From Ectobacillus funiculus (GTDB taxonomy: Bacteria; Bacillota; Bacilli; Bacillales; Bacillaceae_G), in NCBI RefSeq assembly GCF_004138295.1, contig NZ_SCFM01000054.1, positions 1 through 51,301 of the forward strand: a stretch of DNA of 51,301 nt, in the 5' to 3' direction. Of the stretch, positions 186 through 51,301 are shown piece after piece. Numbering within the stretch: position 1 is the stretch's first letter; every line of letters starts with the position of its first letter. Made by a program: the position numbers and the translations under genes. Under the pieces are notes generated by a model, which saw nothing but the letters and a program-made list of their open reading frames with translations, searched no databases and had not been told where the DNA came from.

Positions 186-320
186 TAAAGAAAACTCGCT
201 GATTGGCGAGCCCTGCTCTTGGGCGAAGACAGAGGTGCAGTCGCACTTACACTTTATTCCTAAAATTTTTTGCTACGTCGAATGATCTTCCAGCTAGAAA
301 TTTATACTTTCTTAAAAGTG
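186..320 (+). repeat. 134-bp intergenic repeat, copy R1
   Basis: First unit of a head-to-tail doublet (135 bp here, one extra A near the end). It starts with TAAAGAAAA, then the hairpin CTCGCT-GATT-GGCGAG, then a GCCC/GGGC arm, and ends in ACTTTCTTAAAAGTG. The first C-G pair next to the loop is replaced by T-G. Confidence 0.85.
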
Positions 321-454
321 TAAAGAAAACTCACTGATTGACGTGCCCCGCTCTTGGACGAAGACAGAGGCGTAGCCCTACTTATACTGCATTCCTAAAC
401 CTTCCGACTACGTCAAATCCACTTCCAGCTAGAAATTCATACTTTCTTACGGTG
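321..454 (+). repeat. 134-bp intergenic repeat, copy R2
   Basis: Second unit of the R1/R2 doublet, diverged in the first hairpin (CTCACT-GATT-GACGTG no longer pairs well). Its 3' end (CTTACGGTG) stops two bases before the T-tract of the lysS terminator. Confidence 0.85.
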
Positions 455-455
455 C

Positions 456-484
456 AAAAAAGCTTTGGAGAAACCTCCAAAGCT
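456..484 (-). terminator. Intrinsic terminator of lysS
   Basis: Perfect 10-bp stem AGCTTTGGAG (461-470) with CTCCAAAGCT (475-484), four-base loop, followed on the minus strand by five T (456-460). Confidence 0.9.
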
Positions 485-489
485 CAACC

Positions 490-1974
490 TTACTTATGTC
501 TCATAAGAGGGAACAATAATACATCACGAATGGATGGAGAATTGGTCAATAGCATAACAAGACGATCAATCCCAATACCAAGTCCACCCGTAGGAGGCAT
601 ACCGTACTCTAACGCCTCAATATAGTCATCATCCATCATATGAGCTTCATCATTTCCTTGCTCACGCTCTTTCAGTTGTGCCTCAAAACGCTCCTTCTGA
701 TCAATAGGATCGTTCAATTCAGTGAAGGCATTTGCATGCTCACGAGCTACGATGAATAATTCAAAACGATCAGTAAAGCGTGGATCTTCATCGTTCTTCT
801 TTGCAAGTGGAGAAATCTCTACTGGATGACCGTAGATAAATGTAGGTTGAATTAAGTGCTCCTCTACCTTTTGCTCGAAGAATTCGTTAATAATGTGGCC
901 TACTTCCATAGTATCTTTAATTTCAACATTATGCTCTTTGGCTAAAGCACGAGCTTCCTCTACACTCATCGGACCCCAGAAATCAGCACCACAGTATTGT
1001 TTAATAGCATCTACCATGTGGAGTCGTTTCCATTGCGGCTTTAAGTTTACCTCATATTCACCATATTTCACTGTTGTTGTTCCCAACACTTCTTGTGCAA
1101 TATGAGCAATCAAATTCTCTGTAAGCTCCATGATGTCTTGATAGTCAGCATATGCTTCGTACAGCTCAATCATTGTAAATTCTGGATTGTGACGAGTCGA
1201 GATTCCCTCATTACGGAATACACGCCCAATTTCATATACCTTTTCCAAGCCGCCAACAATTAAACGTTTCAAATGAAGCTCAATTGCAATACGCATATAG
1301 AGTTCCATATCTAATGCATTGTGGTGCGTAATAAATGGACGCGCAGATGCCCCACCCGCAATCGCATGCATCATCGGAGTTTCTACTTCAAGATAACCAT
1401 GATCATCCAAATATCTTCTCATCGCTTGAATAATTTTACTTCTTGCAATAAATGTTTGACGGCTCTCCATACTTGTAATCAAGTCCACATAACGTTGACG
1501 GTAACGCTGTTCAACATCCTTGAGGCCATGATACTTGTCCGGAAGCGGACGAAGTGACTTTGTCAACAAAGTAAAGTTTGTTACTTTTACAGAAAGCTCT
1601 CCTACCTTTGTTTTGAAGACAGTACCTTCTAGACCGACAAGATCCCCTAGGTCAGCTGTGTCAAATAGCTCGTATTGCTCTTCACCAACAGCATCCTGGC
1701 GAACGTACATTTGAATTTGTCCTTCTAAATCTTGAATATGTGCAAATCCAGCCTTCCCTTTACCGCGCTTCGTCATAATGCGACCAGCAAGTGAAACAAC
1801 CGCATTCTTTTCTTCTAACTCTTCTTTTGACATCCCTTCAAACAACTCAAATAGCTGTTTTGTAGAATGGGTACGTTCAAAACGCTTTCCGAACGGATCA
1901 ATCCCTTTTTCACGCAGATTATGTAACTTCTCCCGGCGCACTAGCAGCTGGTCATTTAACTCTTCGTGACTCAT
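490..1974 (-). CDS. lysS: Lysyl-tRNA synthetase, class II
   Basis: Charges tRNA-Lys with lysine in the cytoplasm. The 494-residue length is typical of bacterial LysRS. An N-terminal OB-fold anticodon-binding domain spans about residues 60-140. Class II motif 2 is seen near residues 250-270 ([10 protein letters not shown]...RHNPEF), and motif 3 lies close to the C-terminus ([13 protein letters not shown]). The ATG is preceded by GGAG. It lies downstream of dusB, as in B. subtilis, but a terminator and an extended -10 element between them suggest that it also has its own transcript. It ends at a strong terminator. Confidence 0.97.
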
Positions 1975-2014
1975 TTTATCAACTCCAGGCTTTCTTAAAT
2001 TTTACAATATATAC

Positions 2015-2023
2015 AGTATAGCA
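2015..2023 (-). promoter_or_regulatory. Candidate extended -10 promoter of lysS
   Basis: Minus-strand TGC directly followed by TATACT (2015-2020), 40 bp upstream of the lysS start and just after the dusB terminator. No good -35 is visible, so this rests on the TGn extension and position alone. Confidence 0.4.
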
Positions 2024-2039
2024 TTTTCTCCGCAACCAG

Positions 2040-2066
2040 AAAAACTGCCAGCATTTCACCGGCAGT
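2040..2066 (-). terminator. Intrinsic terminator after dusB
   Basis: Stem ACTGCC (2044-2049) with GGCAGT (2061-2066), followed on the minus strand by TTTTT. It closes the folate operon before lysS. Confidence 0.75.
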
Positions 2067-2109
2067 CTTCGACGTAATTATAGGCAGTATGTCTTGCATT
2101 GTCAAACAC

Positions 2110-50524: not shown

Positions 50525-50637
50525 AATTGTTTCTCCTTTACTCATTAAAAAGCGAACTATGGAACCTAGATAGTACTGCATTATGATACTTGTATCCCTT
50601 ATAAAAACTTCTTTCCTTATTGTACGCTTTTTCAGGC

Positions 50638-50665
50638 AAAAAAAATAATAGGCCTTATGCCTATT
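50638..50665 (-). terminator. Intrinsic terminator of csfB
   Basis: AATAGGC (50647-50653) with GCCTATT (50659-50665), five-base loop, ATTTTTTTT on the minus strand; separates csfB from the yaaO operon. Confidence 0.85.
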
Positions 50666-50711
50666 GTTATAAAAATAATCTATAAAACCCACTTATTTTA
50701 CTTAAAGGGAG

Positions 50712-50906
50712 TCACACTTTTGGCAATTGAATTTTACGAAGCTGTTGTAAATAAAATAAGTATCTTGCATCATCTGTATCTGTTTGCACAATATCACGCT
50801 CACAGGACTCACATATAAACCCATTATAGAGAAAAATTCCTTTCTCCTGCTTTGAGTCACATACAATACATTGTTTAGTTTCAAAGTCTGTTAAAAGTGT
50901 TTTCAT
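50712..50906 (-). CDS. csfB: Anti-sigma-G factor Gin (CsfB)
   Basis: Zinc-binding protein made under sigma-F control that holds sigma-G inactive in the early forespore. The start is the ATG after GGAGGTGGAGAGA, giving 64 residues, as in B. subtilis. Two Cys pairs CIVC and CESC ligate zinc; GIFLYNGFIC between them and the YLFYLQQLRKI helix are conserved. In B. subtilis xpaC and yaaN separate it from yaaO; they are absent here. A weak sigma-F-like promoter (ACATA-16-GGATAAAAA) may lie near 50965-50995. Confidence 0.93.
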   Translation of the reverse strand: MKTLLTDFETKQCIVCDSKQEKGIFLYNGFICESCERDIVQTDTDDARYLFYLQQLRKIQLPKV

Positions 50907-51007
50907 TCTCTCCACCTCCATATTTACATCCTTGACAATTCCACAGCATATATACAGACTTTTCATATTTTTTTATCCATTCTGCTTATTATCCTATGTA
51001 AATATCT

Positions 51008-51058
51008 GGGCGATGTGTCTGTCATCTTTTTAAGAAAAGCAGACACATCCCGCCTTTT
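51008..51058 (+). terminator. Long hairpin near the right edge
   Basis: GATGTGTCTG (51012-51021) with CAGACACATC (51040-51049). The loop itself holds CTTTT/AAAAG. CCGCCTTTTAT follows on the plus strand, so it would terminate plus-strand transcripts; there is no T-run on the minus strand. The unit it serves is outside or absent. Confidence 0.4.
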
Positions 51059-51115
51059 ATGGCAGCGTAGGGGTGAGCCGAAGTCTACCATTTTGGGCCT
51101 TGGGAGCTAGACATC

Positions 51116-51140
51116 ATCCCCAAAAGTTATACTTTCTTAT
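51116..51140 (+). repeat. Possible remnant of the 134-bp repeat (3' end)
   Basis: CCCCAAAAGTTATACTTTCT resembles the end of the repeat and stands directly before copy R13. Confidence 0.4.
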
Positions 51141-51144
51141 TTTT

Positions 51145-51278
51145 TAAAGAAAACTCGCCGATTGGCGAGCCCTGCCCTTGGGCGAAGACAGAGGCGTAGT
51201 TGCACTTACACTGTATTCTTAAAATTTCGGACTACGTCGAATTAGCTTCCAGCTGGAAATTTATCCTTTCCTACAGTG
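51145..51278 (+). repeat. 134-bp intergenic repeat, copy R13
   Basis: Near-consensus unit: TAAAGAAAACTCGCCGATTG start, intact hairpin 1 and GCCC/GGGC arm, palindrome TTCCAGCTGGAA, end CCTACAGTG. Confidence 0.9.
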
Positions 51279-51301
51279 TAAAGAAAACTCGCCGATTGGC
51301 G
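51279..51301 (+). repeat. 134-bp intergenic repeat, copy R14, cut by the window edge
   Basis: The next unit begins exactly 134 bp after R13 with TAAAGAAAACTCGCCGATTG and runs off the window, so the array continues to the right. Confidence 0.85.

Follow-up and report, generated by a model that had tools for sequence, protein, structure and literature searches.

Repeats in the window and in the genome

The window considered here, a stretch of 51,301 nucleotides from Ectobacillus funiculus (contig NZ_SCFM01000054.1), contains lysS-, ftsH-, yabG- and ksgA-like genes as well as tRNA genes, and is interspersed with a folded, non-coding repeat unit of ~134 bp, which is probably a non-autonomous element that inserts directly behind intrinsic transcription terminators. 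All 14 copies or partial copies reported in an initial annotation of the window were recovered: nhmmer located 13, starting at 186, 321, 10957, 15196, 15330, 18391, 18807, 32761 (minus strand), 35901, 36035, 37238, 44099 and 51145, and positions 51279-51301 correspond to the first 23 bases of another copy, cut off by the contig end. Copies 18796, 37222 and 44099 are internally deleted.

A profile built from nine window copies yielded 331 matches (E<=0.01) distributed among 256 loci. These lie on eight contigs, the window included, which together comprise 1,167,376 of the genome's 5,446,075 bases (21%) and are occupied by the repeats to 3.3%. Of the 256 loci, 212 hold a single copy and 44 an array, in which 2-8 copies recur about every 134 bp. 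A second profile gave 316 matches at E<=1e-3 in the same 1.17 Mb vs. 0 in a block-shuffled control; the family is far beyond chance expectation. Our first search of the genome, which scored the best 40 of 948 first-look candidates, listed 93 matches. By extrapolation, the genome holds roughly 1,000-1,500 copies; the upper value may be high because the contigs were picked from the match list of the first search, and ~1,000 is obtained from the largest contig by itself (389 kb, with 64 loci and, by our count, 72 copies). The hundreds of copies initially predicted are therefore borne out by 331 matches in 21% of the genome, and the copies are dispersed over all eight contigs, with 4 to 78 loci each. 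The window density is nothing special among them, and a concentration near the origin need not be invoked, as other contigs (which are unplaced on the chromosome) are equally dense. The intergenic placement was likewise confirmed: only 18 of the 256 loci overlap an open reading frame (ORF) of at least 80 aa by more than 50%, as judged with a crude ORF caller, vs. an ORF coverage of 84%.

Filled and empty sites

The repeat is a mobile element, as sister species differ in whether it occupies a given orthologous site. One gene end was followed through 13 genomes of a sister genus, being filled in G008, G010, G013, G014 and G017 and lacking the element in eight, five of which had flanks close enough for reading. 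The best-resolved empty allele (G018) reads GGATTTTTTTATTTAAATAG. In the filled allele, the element separates the T-tract from ATTTGAATAG; a duplication is absent and a single junction base is ambiguous. A paralogous pair within the E. funiculus genome (C24:10173 filled, C73 empty) likewise lacks a duplication. Flanking direct repeats of 2-5 bases showed no excess among the 70 copies of this genome with both ends readable, an excess being defined as an offset with four or more cases and over two times the shuffled mean. The label "miniature inverted-repeat transposable element (MITE)-like", as initially applied, is thus apt in its broad sense of short, non-coding and mobile, but the element has no classical terminal inverted repeat. 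Together with the lack of a duplication excess, this makes the ordinary model of a transposase acting on terminal inverted repeats a poor fit.

Probable insertion behind terminators

When the element is read on its minus strand, the terminator-like hairpin and T-tract of the neighboring gene usually lead directly into its first bases, TT(A)|CACTG. Among the 203 of 256 loci with a readable 3' end and flank, the 3' flank folds with a minimum free energy below -10 kcal/mol in 136 (67%; mean of all 203, -14.3 kcal/mol), compared to 21/203 shuffled flanks, 16/154 5' flanks and 88/500 random windows. Other genomes yield a similar picture. We tried 34 copies from 31 genomes, one of which was too short, and 26 of the remaining 33 have a flanking hairpin vs. 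2/33 after shuffling and 1/33 among 5' flanks; L040 and L042 among the 26 represent one insertion in two species. Within the window, a hairpin accompanies eight of nine loci, including those at the lysS-, ftsH-, yabG- and ksgA-like and tRNA genes, the exception being 32759. Furthermore, where genes flank the element on either side (248 loci), the one on the 3' side is directed at it in 175 (random expectation, 50%). In 97 copies with an end that fitted a strict pattern, the three positions leading up to the junction are T (95%), T (81%) and A (62%). Non-autonomous movement into terminators is therefore well supported. The initial annotation was correct about the repeat, but it had missed the terminator target, the origin of the arrays and the distribution across the order.

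Structure of the element

The element ends in TAAAGAAAA plus a hairpin on one side and in TTATACTTTC on the other. Its minus-strand 3' end, CTCGCC-AATC-GGCGAG-TTTTCTTTA, comprises a GC hairpin (P1) and a tail, is terminator-like and may itself serve as a terminator. A further stem, P4, pairs AAATTNNN with NNNAATTT. In an alignment of 34 sequences, 33 of them from other genomes, two-sided changes occur in 3/6 pairs of P1 and 4/8 pairs of P4, with P4 columns such as GC16/TA14, GC19/TA7/CG4 and CG21/TA9. The covariation score (0.223 vs. 0.108 +/- 0.008 in shuffles), the number of paired cells and the number of cells with a two-sided change all exceed each of 500 shuffles, and RNAalifold independently recovers both stems, so hairpins P1 and P4 are supported by covariation. 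From the parts initially listed, P1 (CTCGCC/GGCGAG) and the AAATTTC/GAAATTT stem thus covary across genomes, but others did not fare as well. The putative long-range pair CGTAGT...ACTACG (P3) is weak at best, with two-sided changes in 2/10 pairs of a first alignment that included 12 rows from E. funiculus and in 0/9 of the wider one, and a P3/P4 pseudoknot was dropped because P3 lacks consistent covariation. Similarly, the palindrome TTCCAGCTGGAA is not conserved in the other aligned genomes, apart from a palindromic TTCTAGCTAGAA in G400.

Wobble pairs are nearly nil in P4 (2 G-U and 3 A-C of 270), which fits DNA equally well as RNA. The strand of a possible RNA is undecided, as the overall excess of G-U over A-C cells (62 vs. 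23) leans on one pair that contributes 25 of the G-U, and stems P1 and P2 are even (14 vs. 12). Two copies exhibit a promoter-like spacing, AAGACA-16-TATACT, within the conserved core (35941-35968 and 36075-36102), which could drive a plus-strand RNA; the stretch concerned has 8 promoter-like sites vs. 4.6 in shuffles. Separately, solitary near-perfect palindromes of the form AAAGAAAACTCGCC-loop-GGCGAGTTTTCTTT occur at C103:323099, C103:344168, C103:159259, C103:356627, C73:64542 and C73:65479, as if each were either a leftover terminator-like element end or an ordinary look-alike terminator.

Arrays and a second family

Arrays are arranged head-to-tail, and the copy adjoining the gene is the older and more diverged. 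Full first and last copies were available for 29 of the 44 arrays; the gene-distal copy is nearer the consensus in 26 of these and the gene-side copy in 1, with 2 ties (p=4e-7, leaving out the end columns). Long arrays often have inner copies that are identical to each other, an outcome expected of tandem duplication. The head-to-tail arrangement can be explained by the other end of the element, since its hairpin plus TTTTCTTTA is itself target-like: each copy would end in a terminator-like target, a new copy would insert behind the old one, and the array would grow away from the gene. A sequence variant also differs between array positions, with GTAGCCCTAC replacing GTAGTTGCAC in 11/31 last copies (e.g., 321 and 36035 in the window) vs. 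1/41 first copies.

The same 1.17 Mb contain a second family (B) of ~158 bp, which starts with TA(A)AGAAAAGCGGAC and ends with GTTATACTTTCTTA plus a variable tail. It accounts for 32 match pieces (28 loci after merging, namely 51023-51141 in the window and 27 on other contigs), includes internal-deletion forms of ~45 bp, and is often found immediately upstream of a first-family copy, the window copy being an example. Both of its ends are common to the first family, whereas the middles are unrelated. These common ends point to a shared mobilizer and suggest that one machinery, now lost or not recognized, may have read the ends of both families. The features of the window are collected in Table 1.

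Table 1. Repeat copies, adjoining hairpins and neighboring genes in the window
Feature	Coordinates	Strand	Basis
Repeat copy, first in 2-copy array	186..320	+	nhmmer/profile
Repeat copy, last in array, more diverged	321..457	+	nhmmer/profile
Intrinsic-terminator-like hairpin of lysS-like gene, T-tract touching copy 321, putative target	461..484	-	fold -18.4 kcal/mol
lysS-like gene	490-1974		Pfam tRNA-synt_2
Repeat copy, downstream of ftsH-like gene	10956..11088	+	sequence
Hairpin beside copy 10956	about 11095-11117		fold -18.8 kcal/mol
ftsH-like gene	11110-13029		Pfam
Repeat copy, near-consensus, first in array	15196..15332	+	sequence
Repeat copy, last in array; hairpin on its spoIIE side, -19.7 kcal/mol	15330..15466	+	
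Repeat copy behind terminator-like hairpin (-20.2 kcal/mol) of tRNA-Glu/tRNA-Met genes	18391..18521	+	
tRNA-Glu/tRNA-Met genes	18557-18709		
Internally deleted copy, both ends retained; adjoining hairpin -17.1 kcal/mol	18796..18853	+	
Inverted copy, sole locus of nine without strong 3'-flank hairpin (-4.3 kcal/mol)	32759..32895	-	
Repeat copy, first in array	35901..36037	+	
Repeat copy, last in array; adjoins strong hairpin (-27.4 kcal/mol) of yabG-like gene	36035..36170	+	
yabG-like gene	36214-37089		Pfam
Internally deleted copy	37222..37341	+	
Terminator-like hairpin of ksgA-like gene, T-tract touching copy 37222	37346..37366	-	terminator scan
ksgA-like gene	37439-38329		Pfam
Internally deleted copy behind hairpin (-22.0 kcal/mol) of TP_methylase gene	44099..44201	+	
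TP_methylase gene	44237-45109		Pfam
Family B copy, directly upstream of copy 51145	51023..51141	+	
Repeat copy, first in array that the contig end cuts	51145..51281	+	
Start of next copy, cut by the contig end	51279..51301	+	

Distribution

A DNA-level match was obtained in 24 of 60 relatives. The covariance model recognized the element in 93 of 397 genomes of the order (about a quarter) and in 48 of 135 genera, E. funiculus included; since eight candidates were scored per genome, the copy numbers from these scans are lower bounds. In a sample of the phylum Bacillota, 12 of 398 genomes match, again counting our own. The other 11 score 40-53 bits, four of them have at least 5-8 copies, and the three inspected all retain TAAAGAAAAC plus the hairpin, TAGTTGCAC and TTATACTTTC. 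Presence is patchy at close range as well: two of three same-genus genomes (G001 and G002) have no match and the third a single weak one, and no match was found in Bacillus sp. 165 or Priestia taiwanensis. Among 72,556 plasmid records searched by blastn with three element versions, one matched, a record labeled Arthrobacter citreus and not one of the B. cereus group; of two divergent element versions, one gave a weak match in Radiobacillus and the other none. Coordinates in that record (CP053689.1, L190, named Arthrobacter citreus NEB 577) are identical to those in G015:C2. Its species name looks wrong, as G015 is placed in the same family as the E. funiculus genome. No match was found in 50,697 phage records, and among viral contigs none had the 20-base core and three had the 16-base core, none of which carried the element according to the covariance model.

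The initial annotation had named a comparison with Rfam as a check, and no family reached its gathering score for the repeat copies. The best sub-threshold match was sR53 (21.7 bits vs. a cut-off of 49, E 0.0063); homology to this archaeal-type small nucleolar RNA was rejected, given the score below the cut-off and the lack of recurrence in five related loci. We found no description of the repeat in the literature covered, which is weak evidence of novelty, as subscription journals lie mostly outside that coverage.

Search for a mobilizing enzyme and evidence against the proposal

A number of results weigh against the proposed insertion behind terminators or against the mechanism suggested for it below. 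At a third site (site 2), the filled allele is flanked on both sides by TTTGT, a possible 5-bp duplication, and at a fourth (site 1; G009 empty, G016 unreadable) the junction is not exactly resolvable. No strong hairpin accompanies 67 of the 203 E. funiculus loci, and some of the flanking hairpins are the ends of elements or look-alikes, namely L199, L200, L208 and L214 among the 26 from other genomes and a few in E. funiculus itself. A simple terminator scan did not report the element's own hairpin, and two of the five covariation measures fall within the shuffles (pairs with two-sided changes, 94/500; further pair types, 242/500). The usual IS200/IS605 ends have like hairpins, whereas the two of this element differ. 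Above all, we could assign no enzyme that moves the element. A search for Y1 transposase (PF01797) gave no match for carriers G009, G010, G012, G014 and G015, all of one genus, although other carriers do have it, and in E. funiculus only degenerate traces of it are present, a broken copy and a fragment. TnpB (PF07282) lacks a match in 8 of 20 carriers searched, and the element's ends are absent from the 64 loci (L126-L189) with the best Y1, TnpB or reverse transcriptase matches.

Reverse transcriptase (PF00078) was similarly unmatched in carriers G009, G012, G013 and G019, and all three enzymes were rejected as obligate partners, since each lacks a match in some carriers; these absences do not exclude past activity. 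Nor was a full-length relative with a transposase and the same ends, the parent that the initial annotation advised seeking, seen in the 1.17 Mb of the E. funiculus genome, and 0.8 Mb from two relatives likewise revealed no same-ended element of greater length. The 39 ORFs of at least 100 aa between far-spaced pairs of orphan ends appear by eye to be ordinary genes, and Y1 locus L133 was rejected as a parent because its partial match is a truncated copy behind the terminator of a neighboring gene. The earlier comparison to repetitive extragenic palindromes (REPs) is also unsupported in E. funiculus, where the Y1 transposase is broken and no REP-associated tyrosine transposase (RAYT, Y1) gene with flanking REPs was found. 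Replication-strand bias, which might have indicated single-strand movement, was discarded: of 22 copies among the matches listed for G015, 20 are co-oriented with replication, which constitutes no extra bias because 269 of 316 genes (85%) are likewise co-oriented. The degenerate IS200-type Y1 remnants lie at L111:1440-1730, where a repeat copy adjoins, and at L112:1420-1710, near an ORF of tandem GFPGMGM repeats (L112:1993-2455).

Comparison with known systems

Several known systems resemble the repeat in part. IS200/IS605 elements and their non-autonomous derivatives have asymmetric ends with a hairpin near each, an end of their own that resembles the target side, and mostly no target duplication. 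The repeat shares these features, but differs in its unlike hairpins, its conserved internal core and the several carriers without a Y1 match. Group IIC introns also leave no target duplication; the repeat differs from them in its 134-bp length, lack of an ORF, own terminator-like end and tandem arrays, and no group II ribozyme domain was detected at repeat copies, as judged by the absence of an Rfam intron match. What they have in common is the target, as group IIC (class C) introns insert at, and thus lie behind, intrinsic terminators, according to the accessible part of PMC4424553. Like the repeat, SPRITE of Streptococcus pneumoniae is short, terminator-like, enriched at gene 3' ends and of unknown mobilizer, and in the accessible text of PMC3049150 it is described with 30 copies in one pneumococcal genome, an 18-bp stem, a long U-rich tract and AAAA/TTTT ends, with no comparable empty site reported there. 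Relative to that description, the repeat differs in its 6-bp P1 followed by TTTTCTTTA, its empty sites and its insertion behind a pre-existing terminator. RUP and BOX of the same species are likewise high-copy interspersed repeats, but terminal inverted repeats and target duplications are theirs, as far as the available part of PMC3049150 describes them. The intergenic, mobile bcr1 repeat is similar in size, but it is restricted to the B. cereus group and also occurs on plasmids in the portion of PMC6542083 available, unlike our repeat with its order-wide spread and near absence from plasmid records.

Mechanism and alternatives

Of the routes considered, a single-strand, hairpin-reading one fits the ends best, because the ends are asymmetric with a covarying hairpin near each, most sites lack a duplication, and TTTTNTTA at the end of the target resembles the element's own end TTTTCTTTA. 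We tentatively propose, at somewhat less than an even chance, that the element moves in trans by such an IS200/IS605-like reaction, and this is the weakest step of the scheme. It is also possible, albeit rather unlikely, that these repeats belong to a phylum-wide class of terminator-homing mini-elements with self-targeting arrays, two or more unrelated middles between the same ends, and an undescribed mechanism, be it based on a RNA resembling a short interspersed element (SINE) or on a new hairpin-reading single-strand integrase.

A bacterial SINE, whose RNA would be copied in trans by a reverse transcriptase with the T-tract priming an A-rich RNA 3' end, or would enter by reverse splicing, seems an unlikely explanation. 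It would account for the terminator target, which group IIC introns share (PMC4424553, accessible part), for the A-rich 3' flank and sharp 5' end, for the conserved folded core and for the general lack of target duplications, and the E. funiculus genome does hold two group II introns whose reverse transcriptase frames are open (L126 and L127). However, these enzymes appear unlike the endonuclease-free IIC type, four carriers lack a reverse transcriptase match as noted above, and the G-U/A-C strand test is weak. A retro-type bias toward 5' truncation, hinted at by a count by eye, was gone in the systematic count (26 five-prime vs. 18 three-prime, p=0.29). Similarly doubtful is a classical MITE whose imperfect inverted ends TAAAGAAA...TTTCTTA would be the substrate of a DDE transposase. 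The short inverted similarity of the ends, the high copy number and the one possible 5-bp duplication would agree with it, whereas the absence of a 2-5 bp duplication excess, the two resolved empty sites without duplication, the position of the element's 3' end ~5 bases outside the inverted similarity and the lack of a longer same-ended element in the sequence searched all speak against it.

Two further explanations are less probable still. A cis-acting regulatory or 3' untranslated region RNA, kept by the host for terminator reinforcement or mRNA stability and copied along with that function, would be consistent with stems that covary across genera, a position behind gene ends and the promoter-like spacing in two copies, yet the same gene may be filled or empty between sister species, two of three same-genus genomes as well as Bacillus sp. 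165 and Priestia taiwanensis have no match to the repeat, and tandem arrays and decayed copies would be unexpected; this we consider improbable. Membership in the bcr families of the B. cereus group, or in another named family, is very improbable indeed. The size is similar and bcr mobility has been tied to a TTTAT motif in the accessible part of PMC6542083, but bcr1 occurs on plasmids according to the same text and the repeat in just one of the plasmid records, and no Rfam family matches.

Returning to movement into terminators, insertion on the terminator side would provide a safe haven, as the host gene would retain its own terminator and gain a second one, which may explain the host's tolerance of such numbers. 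It is unusual for a bacterial genome to hold roughly a thousand or more copies of one repeat, and the presence of this one in 48 of 135 sampled genera of the order without an identifiable enzyme raises the question of what mobilizes it. Should terminators be the target, their T-tract and hairpin would give a defined substrate for finding the mobilizing enzyme. Furthermore, a mobile element that creates the landing site for its next copy would offer a simple and testable reason for both the arrays and the tolerance of the host.

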